This document shows positions 4,549 through 54,669 of a DNA stretch of 58,552 nucleotides, piece after piece (within the stretch, counting starts at the first letter, position 1; each line of letters begins with the position of its first letter). The DNA comes from Ensifer adhaerens (GTDB lineage Bacteria; Pseudomonadota; Alphaproteobacteria; Rhizobiales; Rhizobiaceae). The stretch covers positions 1 through 58,552 of the forward strand of contig NZ_LGAP01000036.1 in NCBI RefSeq assembly GCF_001270265.1, in the 5' to 3' direction. The notes below the pieces were generated by a model, which saw only the letters and a program-made list of their open reading frames with translations, had not been told where the DNA came from and did not search any database. A program made the translations under genes and the position numbers.

Positions 4549-5480
4549 GCGATCGTCTCCTGAAGAAAGGCGGACAAGGGTTTTCCGTAGCTGCGCGGCA
4601 GCGTTGAGATCGCCTCCGAGGCGATGGTGACGCCGGTGCGCAGGCACTCTTCCAGCGGCATCCCGGCGGCAAGGGCGGCGAGGAAACCGGCGTTGAACAC
4701 GTCACCCGCGCCGATCGTGTCGACCACTTTGACCAGGGGCGCGGCGACGGAGACGATGTCTCCGGTCGGGCCGAGGGCAAGCGCGCCATTCGGCCCGCGC
4801 TTGACGACGACGATCGCGTCGGCGGGCATGTGTGTCTTGAGCGCGCGCGCCGCCTCTGCGACATCGGCAAGGCCGGTCAGCGTCGTCGTCTCGACTTCGT
4901 TGAAGAGCGCGAGCCGGCAGCGCGTCAGCCAGCTGATGGTTGCGGCACAGTTGACATCCGTCCAGCCGTCGAGCGGCCAGCCGGTGTCGAGCGCCACGGC
5001 GATATCCCGCGCCTCGGCCCAGTCGAAGACATCGTCATAGGCGGCGGTCAGGGCATCGGTCAGGAACGAGCCGGCAAGCAGCGCCAGGCCGCCACGCAGG
5101 CGCTCACCGTCAAGCATCGCGCGGACTTCGTCGAAGCTGAAGAGCGGCAGGTGCCCGCGGGTGGTGAAAAAGGTACGCTCGCCATCTGGGTGGGTGATGC
5201 CGACCGACAGTGTCGTGCCGACGCTTTCCACCGGCCAGGCGCTTGCTCGCTCGGCAAAGGCTTCCTTCAGCCAGGTGCCGAACTGGTCGTTGCCGATATT
5301 GGCGGCGATCGCATAGTCGACGCCGAGCGAATCCCAGGCGAGCGCGCTGTTGCCGGCACACCCGCCGACGCGCAGCTCGTCGTGATCGACGATGATTTCG
5401 GTGCCGGCCTTCGGCCAGGGCGCAGCCGGCCCGAGAATAAGGTCGACGTTGACATTGCCGATGACGACAAGAGGACGCAT
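4545..5480 (-). CDS. PfkB-family carbohydrate kinase
   Basis: A 311-residue ribokinase-like kinase, predicted to phosphorylate a sugar or sugar derivative with ATP in the cytoplasm. The N-terminal substrate loop VGGCAGNSALAW is at 38-49. The C-terminal PfkB signature DTIGAGDVFNAGF starts at 254, giving the anion hole and the catalytic base D260. It overlaps the ATPase gene by 4 bp and starts 3 bp after the SIS-domain gene stop, so translation is probably coupled. The company of a SIS-domain protein and a sugar importer suggests that the imported compound is phosphorylated and then isomerised, deaminated or cleaved. The specific substrate cannot be read from the sequence. Confidence 0.88.
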   Translation of the reverse strand: MRPLVVIGNVNVDLILGPAAPWPKAGTEIIVDHDELRVGGCAGNSALAWDSLGVDYAIAANIGNDQFGTWLKEAFAERASAWPVESVGTTLSVGITHPDGERTFFTTRGHLPLFSFDEVRAMLDGERLRGGLALLAGSFLTDALTAAYDDVFDWAEARDIAVALDTGWPLDGWTDVNCAATISWLTRCRLALFNEVETTTLTGLADVAEAARALKTHMPADAIVVVKRGPNGALALGPTGDIVSVAAPLVKVVDTIGAGDVFNAGFLAALAAGMPLEECLRTGVTIASEAISTLPRSYGKPLSAFLQETIA

Positions 5481-5483
5481 GCT

Positions 5484-6509
5484 TTACTCGCTCCGGGTGA
5501 TTTTGGTCGACCTGACCGGCGTTCCGGCATCGGCGACGCGTGCTTCGGCAAAGGCGATCATGAACAATTGCGCCACCGGCAGCATCGCAAAGATCGCCGC
5601 CATTCCGGCGGCTGGTTTGAAGGAAAGGGTGGTGACGCCAGGGATCGGCGCTTCGCCGGAGGCATCGAATACGACGACCGGCGAGCCGGCTTCGGCGGCG
5701 GAAACCGCCATGGCACTGACGAGGCCGGCGGTCGCATCGGCGGCGCGAAACAAGACGACGCCAACGGACGGGCCGAGCATTTCCATCGGCCCGTGCCGGA
5801 GTTGCCCGCCTTCGAGGGAGAAGCAGGGTAGCCGGGACAGCTCCGTCAGCCCGAGCCCGATCGCTTCGGCCAGTCCTTGCATCTGGCGCCCCGAGGTGAC
5901 GACGGCGCGAACGTCCGCGAGCGTCGCCAGTGCTGCCGTCAGGTCAGGCGCTTGGCAGTTTTCAATCGCCTGTAGTGCCGATGAGGGATCGTCGCCAAGG
6001 GCGGCGAGGACCGAAAGATGCAGCGCAAAGCTGATCGTCAGGCTGCGTGTCGCGGCGAATGCCTTTTCGGTGCCGCCGACGCCGACCAGGGAGGGGGCGT
6101 TGCGGGCCAGGAACGAACCCCCTTCGAGGGTCAGACCGAAGATATCGCCGGTCGCACCATTCGTCTCGGCGAACCAGCGCAGAACCTCGGCGCTTTCTCC
6201 GGACTGGGAGGTGACGAGGATGGTTTTGCCTTCGATCGGCAGCGGCTGCCCAAGCTGTTCGGACAGCGGCAGCGCGATCGCATCGATGCCGTGGGCCCGG
6301 TAGAGCGGTTCGACGGCGCGGCCGACCGCATGCGAGCCGCCCATTCCCAGCAGCAGCAGCTTTCCGGTCGCTTTGAGCGACGCGGCGATCTCTCGGGCAA
6401 GCGCCTGTGCTTCGTGGAATGACGCGACGGCGTCAGCGGCCTGGCGGGCCATTTCGTGGTCGATTGCAATGAGCCCGGCCGGGCGGTTTCTGGTATCGGT
6501 CATGGTCAT
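5484..6509 (-). CDS. SIS-domain sugar-phosphate isomerase/deaminase-like protein
   Basis: A 341-residue protein with two SIS domains, like the isomerase half of GlmS and AgaS/FrlB-type enzymes. The first SIS domain shows LLLGMGGSHAVGR (52-64) and the phosphate loop VTSQSGESAE (99-108). The second holds EGGQLRHGPMEML, which matches the catalytic E-x(3)-L-x-H-G-P block of GlmS. It therefore probably converts a phosphorylated amino- or keto-sugar. ATG at 6509 is preferred because it overlaps the permease stop as ATGA; a second ATG follows two codons later. The gene lies between the permease and the PfkB kinase within the sugar operon. An amino-sugar or fructosamine-like substrate is plausible but unproven. 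Confidence 0.83.
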   Translation of the reverse strand: MTMTDTRNRPAGLIAIDHEMARQAADAVASFHEAQALAREIAASLKATGKLLLLGMGGSHAVGRAVEPLYRAHGIDAIALPLSEQLGQPLPIEGKTILVTSQSGESAEVLRWFAETNGATGDIFGLTLEGGSFLARNAPSLVGVGGTEKAFAATRSLTISFALHLSVLAALGDDPSSALQAIENCQAPDLTAALATLADVRAVVTSGRQMQGLAEAIGLGLTELSRLPCFSLEGGQLRHGPMEMLGPSVGVVLFRAADATAGLVSAMAVSAAEAGSPVVVFDASGEAPIPGVTTLSFKPAAGMAAIFAMLPVAQLFMIAFAEARVADAGTPVRSTKITRSE

Positions 6510-46819: not shown

Positions 46820-47056
46820 TCAGCAGTTTCCGAGGCTGGCGCGGCTCATGAGTTCGTTGGTCAGCAGTGCGGTCTTGTCGCCGCATTCCTCGACTTCCTT
46901 GAGCAGAGCGGCAAGCGCCAGCTCGAGGCAATATTGAACGCCTTCGATATTCAGTGTGCGCGAAGAATCGCGTGCGTAGGTGACAAGGCGGGCCAGCGCC
47001 AGCAGCTCCTTTTCCTTGTCTTCAGGTTCAAAGGACATGGCGATCGAAGATTGCAT
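46820..47056 (-). CDS. Small hypothetical protein (78 aa)
   Basis: A 78-residue protein of unknown function, rich in Leu and Glu, with predicted helices (KEKELLALARLVTYARDSSR and IEGVQYCLELALAALLKEVE). ATG at 47056 is preferred because GGGGA lies in front; a Met 15 codons upstream has no ribosome site. It has no signal peptide. It lies 120 bp after tfuA on the same strand, with a possible promoter between, so it could be either a separate gene or a distal member of the RiPP cluster. Confidence 0.55.
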   Translation of the reverse strand: MQSSIAMSFEPEDKEKELLALARLVTYARDSSRTLNIEGVQYCLELALAALLKEVEECGDKTALLTNELMSRASLGNC

Positions 47057-47176
47057 GATTTTCCCCAGTTCCCTGCGGATCAGCGCGATCCACTTCAACA
47101 TGTCAAATCATAGCGTGACTTTTTGTCAGCGCGCGTGACACGAGCGTGACACACGTTGCATGGGAAATTCGTACGC

Positions 47177-47902
47177 TTAAGATGAAGCGGCAAGTTGATT
47201 GAGCAACCGCTTCCAAAGGCTTGTAGAATTGAATGCCCAGCCTTCCGGCGTCGCTCGCCGCCGGTCAGGGGCAGAGCAAATGGTATCGAGCAGTTCCAGG
47301 GCGTCGAGGCGCTTCTGGTTGATCGCCCCGCCCGCCAGAAGCGCTTCCATCCGTTTGTGATCAGTGCCTTCTGGAAGCTTTGCACGCGCCACGATCGTCG
47401 GCCAGCGGCGCTGCTTGTAAAAGATCTCGGCCGCCGCCATCCGCAGTTGTGCGGCAGAGGCGGCGTCGATCTGTTGACGCGCGTGCAAATCCTCAAGCGT
47501 CGCCACGACATTGACCAGCGGCAGGGTCAAAGGCAGATAACCCAGTTCCGCAGGGCCGTGCAGAAGGGCGACATCGGCATCGTCATCAAGCTCGCCTGCC
47601 GCATATTGCCGATAGATCCTGCCGATGCCGATCATGCCGAAGGCTGCGCATTCGGCGGCGCGAAGCGCGCCCATGCTGGCCGCGCCGTAGACGCCCACAC
47701 CTTGGGAAAGCGCAAACAGGATCTCCTTGTGCCAGACGGGCGCTACCTGTTCGAAGTGGCCGTCAACGAGCCCGATGACAGTTGCGCCGTCCTGCGTGGC
47801 TCGCAAGATGTCGCCTTGCACGGCCGGCGGTCGCAGCTCGATGTCGGTGCCGACAAGCGCTTGCGCGTCCGGCAAGGTCGGCCCGGCAAAGAGGATCTTC
47901 AT
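47177..47902 (-). CDS. TfuA-like protein
   Basis: A 241-residue protein of the TfuA family, the YcaO partner that supplies or directs sulfur in thioamide formation (for example in methyl-coenzyme M reductase and, in rhizobia, near trifolitoxin genes). Characteristic blocks are TVIGLVDGHFEQVAPVWHKE (41-60), the GAASMGALRAAECAAFGM loop (73-90) and DDDADVALLHGPAELGYLPL. It overlaps the YcaO gene by 4 bp (47899-47902), so the two are translationally coupled. TfuA together with YcaO marks a backbone-modifying RiPP or protein-thioamidation system. Confidence 0.87.
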   Translation of the reverse strand: MKILFAGPTLPDAQALVGTDIELRPPAVQGDILRATQDGATVIGLVDGHFEQVAPVWHKEILFALSQGVGVYGAASMGALRAAECAAFGMIGIGRIYRQYAAGELDDDADVALLHGPAELGYLPLTLPLVNVVATLEDLHARQQIDAASAAQLRMAAAEIFYKQRRWPTIVARAKLPEGTDHKRMEALLAGGAINQKRLDALELLDTICSAPDRRRATPEGWAFNSTSLWKRLLNQLAASS

Positions 47903-49149
47903 GCGATCTCCAGGGCGTGCGACAGTGCCCGTGCGCCGAAACGGCGCTTGCGTGCTCCATCAGGATTTTCGAGTTCCGGCACGAAGACCTTGACCACGGA
48001 AAACGGTAGCGGCTCGGCGAGCAGCGGAACCGCAACCACGGTGGAGATGCCGGCGCGCATGAGGGCTTCAATGACGTGCGCGAGCAAAGCGTTTTCGCCC
48101 TTGCCTGCAGCCCAGGCAAGTGGGTTTCGGGTGCAAGGCGAGGCCTCGAACAGTTGCTGTGTCTCGCGCGGCAGCCTGCGGGTGAAGGTTTCCGGAAAAA
48201 CGTCGTCGCGCGCGCCGCTGATATAGGTGAGGCGCGACTGCGCGGCCTCGGTAATGGCCCGGATCGCGGCGCATCGCGGATCGGGATGGGCGCCATGCCC
48301 GATGGTGACGTCATGGTAGCGCGGCTCTTTGGCGTCGCGGATGCCGGCATCCGCGATAACGGCGGACAGGCAGGGAATGCCGATGTCGCTTGTCATGTCG
48401 AACAGGCGAAGCGTCAGGCCCGCGGTGGCGATCCGGCTTGTCATGTCGTTAATGATGGGATCGTCGAACAGATCCGCGTCGATGCAGGTGCGCAGTCGCG
48501 CCGTCAGGGGCAGTAGTCGCCACAAGGTTTCGGCATCGCGTTCGATCCGCTCCAGCAGGCCGTGCAGAACCGCCTCGCCTTCGGTGTTGCCGGAGGCAAG
48601 CCCGTCCGACGATTGCCAGTAGCGGCAGCGCTCAAGTGTGCGGTCGAGCAGTGCGGCATGAAACGGTACGAATGTCGTTTGCTGACGGAGAAGATCGACA
48701 CCGCGCAGCCACGCCGTCGGTTCGGCATCGCTAAGGTCGGCCTCGCCCGCTGCCACAAGGCCGGGAAGGGTGAGCGCTCGTTCGCCCTTTTCCAATAGTG
48801 TACGTCGCGTCGCGTGCACTATTGGTGCTGACGGGTTGCAGGCGACCGCGCGCTCCAGCGCTTCCATCGCCGCCGATACCTTTGCGCCGATATCGGTGAT
48901 GCCTTTGCCCTGGTTGATGACGATCGACTTCGCATTTGGCGAAACCGCGTTCCACACGGGTATGCCGATGCTGTCGAGCCCGGTCAGACGGGCAAGCCGG
49001 CTGATGCCGAAAGCGGGCAACAGAGGAGCGACGCGCGCGAAGGTCTCTTCGGGCGCGCAGACACGGTCGGAGTAATGATCTGCAGTGAAAGGATTGCCTG
49101 AAATCGGGCGGCTTTCGCTCGCCCGATCTGGATGTGTGGCCGAAACCAT
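47899..49149 (-). CDS. YcaO-family cyclodehydratase/thioamide synthetase
   Basis: A 416-residue YcaO enzyme that uses ATP to activate a peptide backbone amide for azoline or thioamide formation. The ATP/Mg-binding residues are suggested by SAAMEALERAVA (92-103, S-x-x-x-E-x-x-E style) and by SSDGLASGNTEGEAVLHGLL followed by ERIERD (180-205). The C-terminus ends ARALSHALEIA without the Pro-rich tail of the stand-alone E. coli YcaO. It is followed by tfuA (4-bp overlap) and preceded by an 18-bp gap to a 75-residue peptide gene, forming a minimal RiPP set. Thioamidation is the predicted chemistry because TfuA, not an E1-like partner, is present. Confidence 0.86.
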   Translation of the reverse strand: MVSATHPDRASESRPISGNPFTADHYSDRVCAPEETFARVAPLLPAFGISRLARLTGLDSIGIPVWNAVSPNAKSIVINQGKGITDIGAKVSAAMEALERAVACNPSAPIVHATRRTLLEKGERALTLPGLVAAGEADLSDAEPTAWLRGVDLLRQQTTFVPFHAALLDRTLERCRYWQSSDGLASGNTEGEAVLHGLLERIERDAETLWRLLPLTARLRTCIDADLFDDPIINDMTSRIATAGLTLRLFDMTSDIGIPCLSAVIADAGIRDAKEPRYHDVTIGHGAHPDPRCAAIRAITEAAQSRLTYISGARDDVFPETFTRRLPRETQQLFEASPCTRNPLAWAAGKGENALLAHVIEALMRAGISTVVAVPLLAEPLPFSVVKVFVPELENPDGARKRRFGARALSHALEIA

Positions 49150-49167
49150 GCGCTAGCGCGCCGAGAC

Positions 49168-49395
49168 TTAGCCGTCCATGAACCCGCCGGACACTGAGCC
49201 GGCGGAGTTGGCGCGGACGGCGAAGTTGACGCCCTTCACCACCGTGGCGCCGGCATTTCTGTGCTCATTGGCCGAAGCCAAGGCGCCCGTGAGCGGGTCT
49301 ACGATGCGCGTGACGGTGCCCGTCCCGAGATCGGCCAGCCACAGGCCATCGTCGCCCTCAACGCCAAATACAACTACCTGAGTTGTCGTCGTCAT
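49168..49395 (-). CDS. Candidate RiPP precursor peptide (75 aa)
   Basis: A 75-residue peptide 18 bp upstream of ycaO on the same strand. The N-terminal half (FGVEGDDGLWLADLGTGTVT with RIVDPLTG, residues 10-37) reads like one NHL/Vgb-type beta-propeller blade and may serve as the leader recognised by the YcaO-TfuA pair. The C-terminal tail (VKGVNFAVRANSAGSVSGGF, then MDG) is rich in Gly, Ala, Ser and Asn and has no Cys, so any azole would have to come from Ser or Thr; backbone thioamides, often next to Gly, are more likely. ATG at 49395 has AAGGGGAAAG in front. No named family is recognised. It could also be an unrelated small protein that binds the pair. Confidence 0.65.
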   Translation of the reverse strand: MTTTTQVVVFGVEGDDGLWLADLGTGTVTRIVDPLTGALASANEHRNAGATVVKGVNFAVRANSAGSVSGGFMDG

Positions 49396-49430
49396 CAACT
49401 TTCCCCTTGTCCCTCATGTGGTGATGATAC

Positions 49431-51299
49431 TTAGAAACCGGCCTTGCGCAGGCCTTCGCAGTAATGAGTGCGTTGCCATTCCTCGCGGAACGGAACGATC
49501 GTGATCCACTTGTCCAGGTTGAAGTCCGGGTGGACCTCAAACGTCTTGCGCACGTATTGGCCAGCCTTCTTGCGATTGCCGAGCATACCCCAGCTCGCCG
49601 CGGCGAGACGATCGGCCGGGGTGGGATCGCGCATGCGTTCGATATAATCAAGTGCTTGATCGTATTGAGAAAGTGAGTAGCAGGCGCCGGCGGCGGTCCA
49701 GAAATATTCGTCCGGAGCCATCGGATTGAGATTGATCGCCGCTTCGATCTTGCGCAGGCCGCCATCCGGGCGCGAGGCCTGCACCAGCGTATCGGCGTAG
49801 CTGGCAATCACATTGGCATGCTGCGGGCTGAGCGCTTCGGCTCTCTCATGGAATTCGATGCTTTCGTCGAACTGCCGGCTGTAGAGCTTGACGACGCCGA
49901 GTTCGCGGTAGCCCGCCGCAAGCGTATCGTCGATCGCAATCGCATCTCGAGCGTGCTGTTCGGCGAGAGCCAGAAGTTCGCTGTCGCCGCGGGCGGTCAG
50001 AAGCCACTCCACGAAGTAGCTTCGGGCAAGCCCGCTCATCGCCGGAGCCAGATCGGCATTCTGACTGAGCGCCTCGCGGAAGCTCTTTCGGGCACGCCGG
50101 ACCTCCGGCAGATTGAGTTGCTTGAGATAGCGTTGGCCGAGCAGGTAGCTGCGATAGGATCCGCCGTTGCTCTCATAGGCCTTGCGCATGGTCTCATTGC
50201 GCTCGACCTGGCTGGCAATGGCAAATGCGATCTGTCGGGCGATCTCCTGGCGCGACTTCATCAAGCCATCGTCATCCAGCGTGAAGCGGTCGGCCCAGAT
50301 CACTTCGTCATTGGCAAAGAAGATCAGCTGCGTGAACAGCGTTTGTCGATTGCCCTCGTTCGTCAGCCGGGTATCGAGGATATAGCTGATGGCGTGTTGT
50401 TCGTAGGTGCTGGCCTTGTCTGCCTGCAGGCTGATCTGCGCTGCCGTGTAGGGCGCAATCACCGAGACCGAACGGAGCGCGCAAAGTCCAATCGTGACGT
50501 CCTCGATCAGGCAATGAGCGAAAAGCGTGGCAGCCGCGTCGGCATTGCCGGCACCCGGCGGCAGCAGCACCACGCGCGGCGGGCGCGTCTCGCCCATGGT
50601 CTCCAGCAGTGGGCCGTTGGTCAAGGCGGACAGTGGCGACGCCTTGGCAGTTGCTGCCACCAGTCCGCCGCCCGGCAGAAGGCGCGCGTCATACTGGCGG
50701 CCCTCCGAGGCCAGGACGGTCTTAAGGATCTTGCGAACCTCGTCGTCGGGGTTCTGTTCTAGAAGCTTGACCGCAGCGGATTTGACGAGCTTTCGATCTG
50801 TGCCGGTGGCATTCTCGGCCGCGTTGACCAGGCTCTCGCGCAGCAGCGCCGAATGATCGGCGCGTTGCTGCTCGATCCAGTCGTGAAGCGCTCGGCCCTG
50901 CGACTTCAAGTCCTTGAGAAAATCGTCACGGAATTTCTCCGCGGCCCACCGCAAGCGCGATAGCGCGTCCTGGTCGGCGTTCCGGCCGATGTCGTCGAGA
51001 TCGCTCGCAACCGCATCCGGCTCCAGCCGGACCGTCGACGGCGAGAAGCTGAGGAACGTGTGGCCGAGTTCTTCCTGCCGTGACGTTACGCGGGAGATCG
51101 TCTTGCGCAGATTGACGAAGGCCTGGCTCGGAACGATTTCGTCCCACAGAAGCTTGGCCACATCGTTTCGAGACTGCTCGCGATGGCCGCCGGCGATCGC
51201 TTGAGCGAGAATAAGCAGACCCTTTTCCGGGAAGGCAACATCGCACTCGTCTTCGTCGACAAGGCGCAACCGCCCCAGGGTCTGCAATCTGAATTTCAT
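49431..51299 (-). CDS. SARP/BTAD-type transcriptional regulator with TPR
   Basis: A 622-residue regulator of the SARP class. The N-terminus (about 1-90) is an OmpR-like winged helix (LGRLRLVDEDECDVAFPEKG, then LLWDEIVPSQAFVNLRKTIS), followed by a BTAD region to about 200. A middle segment (PPRVVLLPPGAGNADAAATL) recalls the adenylyl-cyclase-associated linker of such proteins. TPR repeats fill 390-600 (RSYRSYLLGQRYLKQLNLPE-like, AIAIDDTLAAGYRELGVVKL). It ends 35 bp upstream of the precursor-peptide gene on the same strand. Actinobacterial SARPs often control peptide or antibiotic clusters, so a cluster-specific activator is a reasonable inference. Confidence 0.8.
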   Translation of the reverse strand: MKFRLQTLGRLRLVDEDECDVAFPEKGLLILAQAIAGGHREQSRNDVAKLLWDEIVPSQAFVNLRKTISRVTSRQEELGHTFLSFSPSTVRLEPDAVASDLDDIGRNADQDALSRLRWAAEKFRDDFLKDLKSQGRALHDWIEQQRADHSALLRESLVNAAENATGTDRKLVKSAAVKLLEQNPDDEVRKILKTVLASEGRQYDARLLPGGGLVAATAKASPLSALTNGPLLETMGETRPPRVVLLPPGAGNADAAATLFAHCLIEDVTIGLCALRSVSVIAPYTAAQISLQADKASTYEQHAISYILDTRLTNEGNRQTLFTQLIFFANDEVIWADRFTLDDDGLMKSRQEIARQIAFAIASQVERNETMRKAYESNGGSYRSYLLGQRYLKQLNLPEVRRARKSFREALSQNADLAPAMSGLARSYFVEWLLTARGDSELLALAEQHARDAIAIDDTLAAGYRELGVVKLYSRQFDESIEFHERAEALSPQHANVIASYADTLVQASRPDGGLRKIEAAINLNPMAPDEYFWTAAGACYSLSQYDQALDYIERMRDPTPADRLAAASWGMLGNRKKAGQYVRKTFEVHPDFNLDKWITIVPFREEWQRTHYCEGLRKAGF

Positions 51300-51328
51300 C
51301 TGGCTATCTCATCGGCAACCGGTGACGC

Positions 51329-51787
51329 CTATCCATGCAGGTCAGGGGCGTGCGCAGTGCTGCCGTGGGCGGCGACTGTTTCTGCCTCGGGCGTCTGTGC
51401 GACGGCGGCCACCAGCGAAATGATCTTCTTGCGCAGGATCGGGTCGGTAATCTTCAAAAAGGCCCGATTGAGCGCAATACCCTCCTTCGACGACACGAAG
51501 GACGAGATTTCGTTGGGCTCGCGCACATCGCCAAGGCCTGCCCGGGGAGCCGCACCCTCTTCGCCTTCCTGGAAGAAAAAGCTTGGGTGAACGCCGAGAA
51601 CATCGGCGATTGCCTGCAACCGGCTCGCTCCGATGCGATTCGTGCCCTTTTCATACTTCTGAACCTGCTGGAACGTGATGCCAAGGCCGTCTGCCAGCTT
51701 CTCCTGGCTCAACCCGGCCATCAACCGACGCATCCTGACGCGGGAACCGACAAAGACATCAATCTGGCTGGGTGCTTTTGTGTTCAC
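51329..51787 (-). CDS. XRE-family HTH regulator
   Basis: A 152-residue regulator with an XRE helix-turn-helix at about 12-66 (VGSRVRMRRLMAGLSQEKLA, LGITFQQVQKYEKGTNRIG) and a C-terminal region (about 70-150) resembling the rhizobial small-XRE group. The start is GTG at 51787 with GGAGG in front. It lies 29 bp upstream of the SARP gene on the same strand and is the first gene of the array. It may sense growth phase or stress and switch the cluster; this is inferred from position only. Confidence 0.85.
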   Translation of the reverse strand: MNTKAPSQIDVFVGSRVRMRRLMAGLSQEKLADGLGITFQQVQKYEKGTNRIGASRLQAIADVLGVHPSFFFQEGEEGAAPRAGLGDVREPNEISSFVSSKEGIALNRAFLKITDPILRKKIISLVAAVAQTPEAETVAAHGSTAHAPDLHG

Positions 51788-51937
51788 GTGTGTTTCCTCC
51801 GCATGTAAGCGTGATCAAATCATACATATGAGTTTGCTCGAATAAATGACTCGATGCAATCACTACGCGCCAAAACATGGATAATTGCGCTGTGTGACGC
51901 CGAACGCTCCCTTTGCATGGCCGACGTTACGGCCGTT

Positions 51938-51954
51938 GTTACTGTTACGTACTT
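51938..51954 (+). promoter_or_regulatory. Shared 17-bp element, copy facing the SH3 gene
   Basis: GTTACTGTTACGTACTT on the plus strand, identical to the 26536 copy, in the divergent region between xre and the SH3 gene. It lies 90 bp upstream of the SH3 start. An XRE promoter on the other strand presumably also lies in 51788-51912. Confidence 0.72.
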
Positions 51955-52044
51955 GCGCCGGGTCGGGGTGGAGCGATGTTGTTGAGCAATGCGGGCCATG
52001 CCCGCCTGCAACAAAGTCAATTGCGGCAACGTCGGAGATGCGAG

Positions 52045-54669
52045 ATGCGCGGAATATCCTTGACCTTCACCCTGCTCGCCATTGCCGCCGCTCCGGCGTG
52101 GGCAGGCCCTGCCACGGCGACGGCATCGGTCAATTTTCGGGCAGGGCCGGGCACCGGGTTCGACAGCCTCGGCAAGATCGCCGCGGGGGGGCAGGTCGAC
52201 GTCAAGGAGTGTGACGATGCCGGGACCTGGTGCGCCGTCAGCTTCGAAGGGAAAGACGGTTTCGTCAGCGGCAAGTACCTGGCCGATGCCGATCCGACGG
52301 GCCTCGGCTGGCCGCGCGCCTACAAGACCGACAAGGGGGCGACAATTACGCTCTATCAGCCGCAGGTGAACGCCTGGAAGGATTTTACCGATCTCGATGC
52401 CCTGATCGCCGCCGAATACAAGCGGTCCGACGATGCCAAGCCGATCTTCGGTGTCATCGGGGTGACGGGCAAGACCGTGACGGACAGCGGCTCGGACGAG
52501 GTGGTCGTCTCCGACATCAAGGTCGACGAGATCAATTTCTCGGTTCTCGATCGCCAGGAACTGGCCGACCTCGCCTTGGAGGTCGGCAAGGTGATGCCCG
52601 TCGGCACCCTAACGCTGTCGGAGGACAAGCTGACCGCGAGCCTTGCCGACTATGAGCGGCTCGGCAATGTCGAAGGGCTGAAGGCCGATCCGCCGCCGAT
52701 CTATGTCAGCAAGGAGCCGGCGCTGCTGGTGCAGACCGACGGCAAGGCGGTGTTCGCGCCGGTCAAGGGCGCCGAAGGCCTGTCCTTTGCCGTCAACACC
52801 AATTGGGATCTGTTCAAGCTCGACGCCGACGGCAGCTACTATCTTCGCAACGAAAAGGCATGGCTGCAGTCGAAAGACCTGTCGGGCGGCTGGCAGTCGG
52901 CAACGTCGCTTCCCGATCTCTTCGGCAAATTGCCGGATGACGACAACTGGAAGGATGCGAAGGGGGCCATTCCGCCGGCGGCCGGCGAGGGCGCGGCGCC
53001 GAAGGTCATCTATTCGGACAAGCCGTCGGAACTGTTCGTGTTCGACGGCGAGCCGAAGCTCGAAGCCGTGCCGGGTACCGGACTGAAGATTGCGACGAAC
53101 ACCGAGAGCGATGTGTTCTATCTCGCTCAGGATTCGAATTGGTACGTGCTCGTCTCCGGCCGCTGGTTCTCGGCTGCGTCGCTCGATGGCCCCTGGACCT
53201 TCGCCACCCCCAACCTTCCCCAGGACTTCCAGAATATTCCGGAGGATGCCGCCTATTACACGGTCCGCTCGTCGGTTCCGGGCGCCTCGGAAAATGCCGA
53301 AGCCAGGTTGAAGGCCAGCATCCCCGAAAAGGCCCGCGTCTCGCTGGACGGTTCGGTGAAGGTTGAGGTCGCCTATAGCGGCGACCCGAAATTCGAGAAG
53401 ATCGACGGAACGGCGCTCACCTATGCCGTCAATACCAATGAAACGGTGATCCAGGTTGCCGACAAGTACTTCGTGTTGAATGACGGCATCTGGTTCGTCG
53501 GCGATACGCCGACCGGTCCGTTCACCGTGGCAAAGGCCGTCCCCGACGAGATCTACACGATCCCGCCGTCGTCGCCGGTCTACAACGCCACCTATGTCCG
53601 CATCTACGACACCGAGCCGGACGCGGTTTGGGTCGGATACACCATGGGTTATCTCGGGGCCTATCTCGCCTGGGACACGTTCGTCTACGGCACCGGTTGG
53701 TACTATGACGACTACTGGGACTATGGCTGGGCCGGCGGCGGCTACTGGCCCTATTATCCACGGCCGGTAAGCTATGGCGTCGGCGCGTTCTACAATCCGG
53801 CGGTCGGCACGTTCGGTCGTTACGGCTATGCCTACGGTCCCTATCGCGGCATCGCGGCCGGCGCGGCCTACAACCCGCGCACCGGCACTTACATCAGGGG
53901 CGCGGCCGGTTATGGGCCGGCGGGTGAGCGCGGCTTTGTCGCTGCCTATAATCCCCGCACCGGTAATGCGGCGATCGCGCGCGGCGGGCACAATGTCTAC
54001 GGCAGCTGGGGGACGGCTGCGGTCAAGCGCGGTTCGGATTTTGCCCGGATCAGCGGCGGCTCGACCGCCGGCGGCGCCGGTGCCCATTGGCGCACCTCCG
54101 ACGGCAATCACGGCTTTGTTGCAGGCGGCAAGGGCGGCGACGTCTATGCCGGACGCGATGGCAACGTCTATCGTCGCGACGATGGCCAATGGCAGAAGCA
54201 TACGCCGGACGGCTGGCAGCCGATTCAAAAGCCGTCGATCCAGGATGCGAAGAAAGCCGGTCAGCAGTTCGCAACCCAGCACCCGGATGCGGCGCAGAAC
54301 CTGAACAAGCGCATCGACGATCGCCGCCCGGCTAGTGGCGGGAACGCCATCGGCAATCGCGCGCCCGACCATCTGGCGATCGATCGTGCCGGCCGCCAGA
54401 TCGGCAACCAGCGCTCCTTCGAGCATCAATCGTTCAACCAGCGTCCGTTGAACCTGCCGAGCGGCGGTAATTTCGGTGGGGGCGGGTTTGATCGTCCCGG
54501 GGCTTTGGTGGCGGCGGTTTCCACGGCGGAGGTGGGTTCTCAGGCGGCGGGGGCTTCCATGGCGGAGGTGGCGGCTTTCATGGTGGTGGTGGCGGCGGCT
54601 TCCGCCGCCGTTGACGGCAGAAAGCGAACCGGAAACGGAAGTTGGCATAAACGCCAGGGACTGTGTTAG
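52045..54669 (+). CDS. Secreted SH3-domain protein, C-terminus apparently frameshifted
   Basis: An exported protein with signal peptide (MRGISLTFTLLAIAAAPAWA), an SH3b domain (about 25-90: VNFRAGPGTGFDSLGKIAAG), a long middle with repeated FxYAVNTNxxxF-like modules (for example at 230-300 and 400-460) and a Tyr/Gly-rich region around YDDYWDYGWAGGGYWPYYPR. The in-frame reading ends at 54669 with an Ala-rich tail unlike the rest. A 1-nt gain in the CCCGGGG run at 54496-54502 would instead give GFGGGGFHGGGGFSGGGG, then GFRRR and a stop at 54614, which matches how such proteins end. GGAG precedes the ATG. It is preceded by the shared 17-bp element and followed by MscS and MltF-like genes. Confidence 0.78.
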   Translation: MRGISLTFTLLAIAAAPAWAGPATATASVNFRAGPGTGFDSLGKIAAGGQVDVKECDDAGTWCAVSFEGKDGFVSGKYLADADPTGLGWPRAYKTDKGATITLYQPQVNAWKDFTDLDALIAAEYKRSDDAKPIFGVIGVTGKTVTDSGSDEVVVSDIKVDEINFSVLDRQELADLALEVGKVMPVGTLTLSEDKLTASLADYERLGNVEGLKADPPPIYVSKEPALLVQTDGKAVFAPVKGAEGLSFAVNTNWDLFKLDADGSYYLRNEKAWLQSKDLSGGWQSATSLPDLFGKLPDDDNWKDAKGAIPPAAGEGAAPKVIYSDKPSELFVFDGEPKLEAVPGTGLKIATNTESDVFYLAQDSNWYVLVSGRWFSAASLDGPWTFATPNLPQDFQNIPEDAAYYTVRSSVPGASENAEARLKASIPEKARVSLDGSVKVEVAYSGDPKFEKIDGTALTYAVNTNETVIQVADKYFVLNDGIWFVGDTPTGPFTVAKAVPDEIYTIPPSSPVYNATYVRIYDTEPDAVWVGYTMGYLGAYLAWDTFVYGTGWYYDDYWDYGWAGGGYWPYYPRPVSYGVGAFYNPAVGTFGRYGYAYGPYRGIAAGAAYNPRTGTYIRGAAGYGPAGERGFVAAYNPRTGNAAIARGGHNVYGSWGTAAVKRGSDFARISGGSTAGGAGAHWRTSDGNHGFVAGGKGGDVYAGRDGNVYRRDDGQWQKHTPDGWQPIQKPSIQDAKKAGQQFATQHPDAAQNLNKRIDDRRPASGGNAIGNRAPDHLAIDRAGRQIGNQRSFEHQSFNQRPLNLPSGGNFGGGGFDRPGALVAAVSTAEVGSQAAGASMAEVAAFMVVVAAASAAVDGRKRTGNGSWHKRQGLC

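Follow-up and report, generated by a model that had tools for sequence, protein, structure and literature searches.

Gene content of the locus

The window analysed here is the whole of a 58,552-nucleotide stretch of Ensifer adhaerens DNA (contig NZ_LGAP01000036.1), and five closely packed genes lie on its minus strand. An XRE-type helix-turn-helix regulator (positions 51329..51787; 152 aa, GTG start; Pfam PF01381, 4e-15) is followed by a SARP-type regulator (49431..51299; 622 aa), a precursor-like peptide (49168..49395; 75 aa), a YcaO protein (47899..49149; 416 aa; Pfam PF02624, 4e-63) and a TfuA protein (47177..47902; 241 aa; Pfam PF07812, 4e-44). The original prediction had named the two enzymes and the XRE protein from the letters of the sequence, and the Pfam matches bear this out; recomputed coordinates reproduce its gene order and its spacing, with gaps of 29 nucleotides (XRE-SARP), 35 (SARP-peptide) and 18 (peptide-YcaO) and an overlap of 4 between YcaO and TfuA. 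Its five-gene unit holds as to the five genes but not as to size: an additional minus-strand ORF at 47101-46820 (46820..47101; up to 93 aa, start uncertain) had been overlooked. An iterated profile, in which drift is possible and some members match at E 1e-5 only, places this ORF downstream at 72 of the 102 related loci. Judged by this conservation, the unit is one of six genes, not five.

Naming the sixth gene by family was attempted and given up: Pfam and NCBIfam gave just weak, single-member rows for 25 relatives. Likewise, Pfam holds no family for the window peptide, and NCBIfam returned a single row (E 0.17). A defence system was also considered and rejected, as among the six proteins PADLOC models matched the XRE protein alone, through its helix-turn-helix. 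A long ORF (51913-54669), whose beginning we take to be SH3-like, diverges from the operon in the window; a relative lies next to the operon in one set of 15 among the 65 full operons described below.

The YcaO and TfuA enzymes

The joint presence of YcaO and TfuA, as expected of a thioamidated RiPP system, is observed in the window and in its relatives. The closest solved structure to YcaO is MJ1094 (6pe3; E 4e-38), with which it shares the stretches GKG..I..AKVSA.MEA.ER and EA.LH..LE.IERDA, and TfuA has a sole solved relative, 6xp8 (E 4e-24). Both enzymes are closest to the NCBIfam models for McrA-glycine thioamidation, each match falling below the model cut-off, so that by models and structures alike their nearest relatives are archaeal proteins. 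Thioamide chemistry is suggested by this proximity to archaeal thioamidation proteins and by published work on YcaO-TfuA pairs: in the thiovarsolin pathway, a thioamidated product reportedly needs no more than precursor, YcaO and TfuA (PMC6511847). Amidines or azolines are reported as the products of other YcaO proteins (PMC8442711, PMC7136475).

A conserved peptide family with a precursor-like architecture

The peptide belongs to a gene family found in all 16 genus genomes searched and in at least 78 of 394 genomes of the family, spread over 20 of its 109 genera (profile of 20 relatives in both cases). At the level of the order, at least 32 of 397 genomes have a match (profile of 35); nine of these are family members, and among the rest several matches are short and weak. 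In a sample of 385 genomes from the class, the source genome alone matched among the candidates scored (profile of 28). The counts for family, order and class are lower bounds, only part of the first-look candidates having been scored in most genomes. Searches retrieved 63 database proteins, and those that bear names are called hypothetical or uncharacterized. Six groups of relatives, whose pairs are not independent, have median dN/dS values between 0.09 and 0.16; three of these groups consist of regulator-peptide pairs standing alone. Sequence comparison thus indicates a conserved gene family under purifying selection, and the peptide gene is more than a chance reading frame, since relatives occur in so many family genomes and dN/dS is low. 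Synonymous versus non-synonymous changes in the last ten codons number 22/0, 39/10, 32/8, 14/0 and 8/4 in five groups, and are less clear in one (33/21).

The structure model of the window peptide (mean pLDDT 86.2) places three strands and a helix with high confidence; the tail that follows is modelled less surely, and the leader is probably folded. This looks like a RiPP precursor, in which a leader precedes a short core at the C-terminus (SGGFMDG in the window; 49171..49191, minus strand). The boundary of this putative core is one we infer; the segment aligns with one repeated in relatives. Shinella has two to three tandem copies of the core, L136 and L144 have three each and L124 has four (L numbers designate loci). 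L224 has four copies, L231 six or seven, and L238 six of another unit that does not fit the core motif. A motif chosen after viewing the peptides, G-x-[FYLHMV](M)-[DE], is present within the last 40 residues in 83 of the 97 distinct peptides and within the first 50 in four; it is missing from 14, one being a frameshifted copy, and it occurs in 2 to 4 copies in seven. The absence of Cys from the 75-residue peptide, already noted in the original prediction, is plain from its sequence and is shared by 95 of the 97 distinct peptides, Cys occurring in two.

No Foldseek match to the peptide fold was obtained at E<=1e-3. Weak Foldseek rows hinted at an RRE-like leader; profile comparison and VIA gave no support. 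A PqqD match was sought in the source genome and not found. Among individual loci, L087 carries the peptide gene in two frames (about 4974-5215), apparently frameshifted, while its other five genes match full profiles. Two tandem peptide genes, the second one shorter, precede YcaO in L026 (5468-5972) and L138 (about 5000-5506), and a partial second peptide-like ORF (G308:C10:56116) lies within L117.

Gene order across related loci

We compared 102 peptide loci obtained from the genus and family searches; the window and the short contig-end matches G345:C44 and G345:C9 were left out, and the frameshifted peptide of L087 was kept, as was the L160 regulator, which lies in two frames. The regulator lies directly upstream of the peptide in all 102 loci. 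YcaO is downstream in 84, being absent beside the peptide in 18, TfuA is downstream in 78, and XRE precedes the SARP gene in 72. The complete six-gene operon is present in 65 loci, and 17 carry the regulator alone with the peptide. The conserved peptide gene is thus linked to YcaO and TfuA, as expected of a thioamidated RiPP system, and the absence of the peptide from other ycaO-tfuA loci, which the original prediction named as one of its refutations, is not what is seen. Beyond the family, regulator, peptide, YcaO and TfuA occur together in all 15 loci fetched, from six further families; these come from 23 non-family genomes with the peptide, the other eight being left out.

Shared flanking genes (at least 90 aa, within about 5 kb) sort the 65 full operons into 27 groups, of 18, 15 and 3 members, five of 2 and 19 of 1. 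Since the flanks differ in this way, conservation of the unit stops at the sixth gene. No flanking gene of this size is common to all 65 operons, and the unit has neither a conserved exporter nor a conserved protease, in agreement with the original prediction, which saw no dedicated one and, among the window's ORFs, no E1-like cyclodehydratase partner; a transporter may stand beside the operon in a given flank group.

A sister arrangement is seen in L222 (2256-7285) and L216 (4156-9352), where a related regulator is found with an unrelated peptide of 43-47 aa, YcaO, TfuA, a small ORF and XRE. In L017 (5465-5953) and L018 (5336-5947), of the Rhizobium giardinii type, long multi-repeat precursors lie beside YcaO-TfuA without a SARP gene; the same genomes also carry a normal XRE-SARP-peptide-YcaO set elsewhere.

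Co-occurrence and split loci

YcaO at E<=1e-50, a cut-off of our choosing applied to genomes that are related, is present in 78 of 78 family genomes with the peptide versus at least 18 of 316 without it. In four genomes (G308, G044, G1161 and G1162, the latter two searched with the regulator rather than the peptide profile) the peptide is encoded apart from YcaO, and the YcaO locus has no peptide match. The YcaO-TfuA locus of G308 and G044 retains XRE together with a regulator of reduced length, and both genomes have an intact regulator-peptide pair at another site. In the genomes of L022 and L023 a regulator-peptide pair is distant from a YcaO gene that has no peptide. TfuA can also separate: in group g46, XRE-TfuA is apart from regulator-peptide-YcaO in all five genomes fetched, TfuA is divergent and upstream in a sixth (G215) and inside the operon in a seventh (G382), so that six of the seven g46 loci in the family sample have no downstream TfuA. 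All separated parts are kept, whether peptide and YcaO (four genomes) or TfuA (five), which suggests that they work in trans. A YcaO-TfuA pair may therefore act on peptides whose genes lie at other sites in the genome. The source genome itself has two stand-alone regulator-peptide pairs besides the window array.

Two more YcaO-TfuA pairs with other neighbours are found in the source genome, on G000:C46 (L052 1645-4260) and G000:C10 (L051 6189-8795), each adjoined by a different small ORF (67 aa in one case, 97 aa in the other).

The SARP-type regulator

In Pfam, the window regulator matches TPR-type repeats and otherwise weak unrelated rows only, with neither BTAD nor Trans_reg_C at E<=0.1. 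Among 36 aligned relatives, eight match BTAD and two Trans_reg_C, which supports the SARP label given originally. The structure model comprises an N-terminal DNA-binding and BTAD-like part, a middle alpha/beta part and a C-terminal TPR superhelix; its secondary structure agrees with a winged helix and BTAD, and a CadC-like part is seen together with the superhelix. SARP profile matches in L155 and L158 start only at about residue 230. A TPR regulator with a peptide gene adjoining is the layout by which RRNPP pairs are recognized, and it is present here.

A probable thioamide-type RiPP system

We favour the view that these loci encode a thioamide-type RiPP system of Hyphomicrobiales in which the peptide is the precursor modified by YcaO-TfuA, and we give it about three chances in four. 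The enzymes would recognize the peptide leader and exchange backbone amide oxygen for sulfur in the C-terminal core. This core mostly reads G-x-(aromatic, Leu, His, Met or Val)-(Asp or Glu), and peptides carry between one and about seven copies of it. Expression would be under the control of the SARP-type regulator, whose gene immediately precedes that of the peptide, with XRE and the sixth gene as presumed auxiliaries, and one YcaO-TfuA pair may act on peptides from other loci, as the split loci suggest. Because the unit has no conserved exporter or protease, the product would act in the cell or use general ones; it may be sensed inside the cell, as the peptide gene is nearly always beside its own regulator gene. 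As to the original reading of the locus as a thioamide RiPP system, comparison gives good support to YcaO-TfuA acting on the peptide, while thioamide formation is the part that we infer. Several points count against our reading: the thioamidation models match below cut-off, some peptides lack the motif or carry it in their first 50 residues, 18 loci have no adjoining YcaO, and most g46 loci have no downstream TfuA.

We may also hypothesize, tentatively and by analogy, that each SARP regulator binds as its ligand the modified peptide encoded beside it, through its CadC-like and TPR parts, with YcaO-TfuA as maturase. Such signalling is compatible with a thioamide-type RiPP system, which leaves the role of the product open. 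In support of it, the regulator is a more constant neighbour of the peptide than YcaO (102 versus 84 of 102 loci), the 17 stand-alone pairs include three groups under purifying selection, the regulator model has both the TPR superhelix and the CadC-like part, no exporter is conserved in the unit, and RRNPP pairs are reported as two adjacent genes (PMC10075063). However, plain pathway regulation fits the adjacency as well, TPR repeats give high Z scores with many proteins, and the SARP profile covers L155 and L158 only in part. The long-repeat peptides of L017 and L018 stand with YcaO and without an adjoining SARP gene, yet both genomes have the usual set elsewhere. A bolder version, which we regard as rather doubtful, would make the system a Gram-negative counterpart of RRNPP, with a backbone-thioamidated signal, several SARP-TPR/precursor pairs per genome and one YcaO-TfuA pair acting in trans. 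Because regulator and peptide are paired so constantly and some loci are split, a signalling role can be put to a direct test.

A secreted antibacterial peptide, exported and trimmed by general machinery, appears improbable. The model for it is trifolitoxin, and Breil 1996 is reportedly the work cited for TfuA in its production. A role of TfuA there is indeed described (PMC4603692), but the 65 full operons share no flanking gene, and hence no exporter or immunity gene is conserved beyond the six, and the last ten codons vary little in most groups, the group with 33/21 changes being less clear. It is just as improbable that YcaO-TfuA act on a cellular protein with the peptide as small partner or adaptor: protein thioamidation is known for McrA and a ribosomal protein (PMC5589413, PMC13063428) and the leader is modelled as folded, but the repeated C-terminal segment, the low-confidence tail behind the folded part and the strict co-occurrence fit a precursor better.

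Relation to known systems

The thiovarsolin pathway of Streptomyces varsoviensis has the same combination of precursor, YcaO and TfuA, and its precursor has imperfect repeats (PMC6511847), whereas the precursor and phylum differ here and SARP, XRE and the sixth gene are present. Archaeal McrA-glycine thioamidation supplies the closest NCBIfam models, matched below cut-off, and the closest solved structures; its substrate is a large enzyme, in contrast to the dedicated short peptide that is probable here. Trifolitoxin of Rhizobium T24 is likewise rhizobial and TfuA-associated (PMC4603692). Set apart by description, it is azol(in)e-modified and encoded by a tfxABCDEFG cluster (PMC9670871), unlike the Cys-free peptide and constant SARP pair found here. 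The RRNPP quorum-sensing pairs of Firmicutes also place a small peptide gene beside a TPR-regulator gene, a likeness of gene layout alone, as the present systems have a SARP-type DNA-binding part and YcaO-TfuA and are Gram-negative.

The locus had been called undescribed. No description of the SARP-peptide-YcaO-TfuA set was found in the open-licence literature, by title or abstract start, and the passages of Malit 2021 that were consulted do not describe the window peptide family or use the term SARP (PMC8120280). That study mined TfuA clusters, over 500 of them from Rhizobium, which leaves novelty uncertain. The peptide provides a defined and widely conserved candidate substrate for the TfuA-associated YcaO clade of rhizobia and relatives.

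The peptide occurs with YcaO in strains of Sinorhizobium meliloti and S. medicae (L031, L034; Ak57), which makes a genetic model available for testing the system. On the pSymB record of S. meliloti 1021 lies a TfuA that shares 91.8 percent identity with the one of L217. In S. meliloti Ak57 (L240 4157-5983), on a 3.7 Mb record labelled pSymB, the SARP-type regulator is annotated 'adenylate cyclase'.
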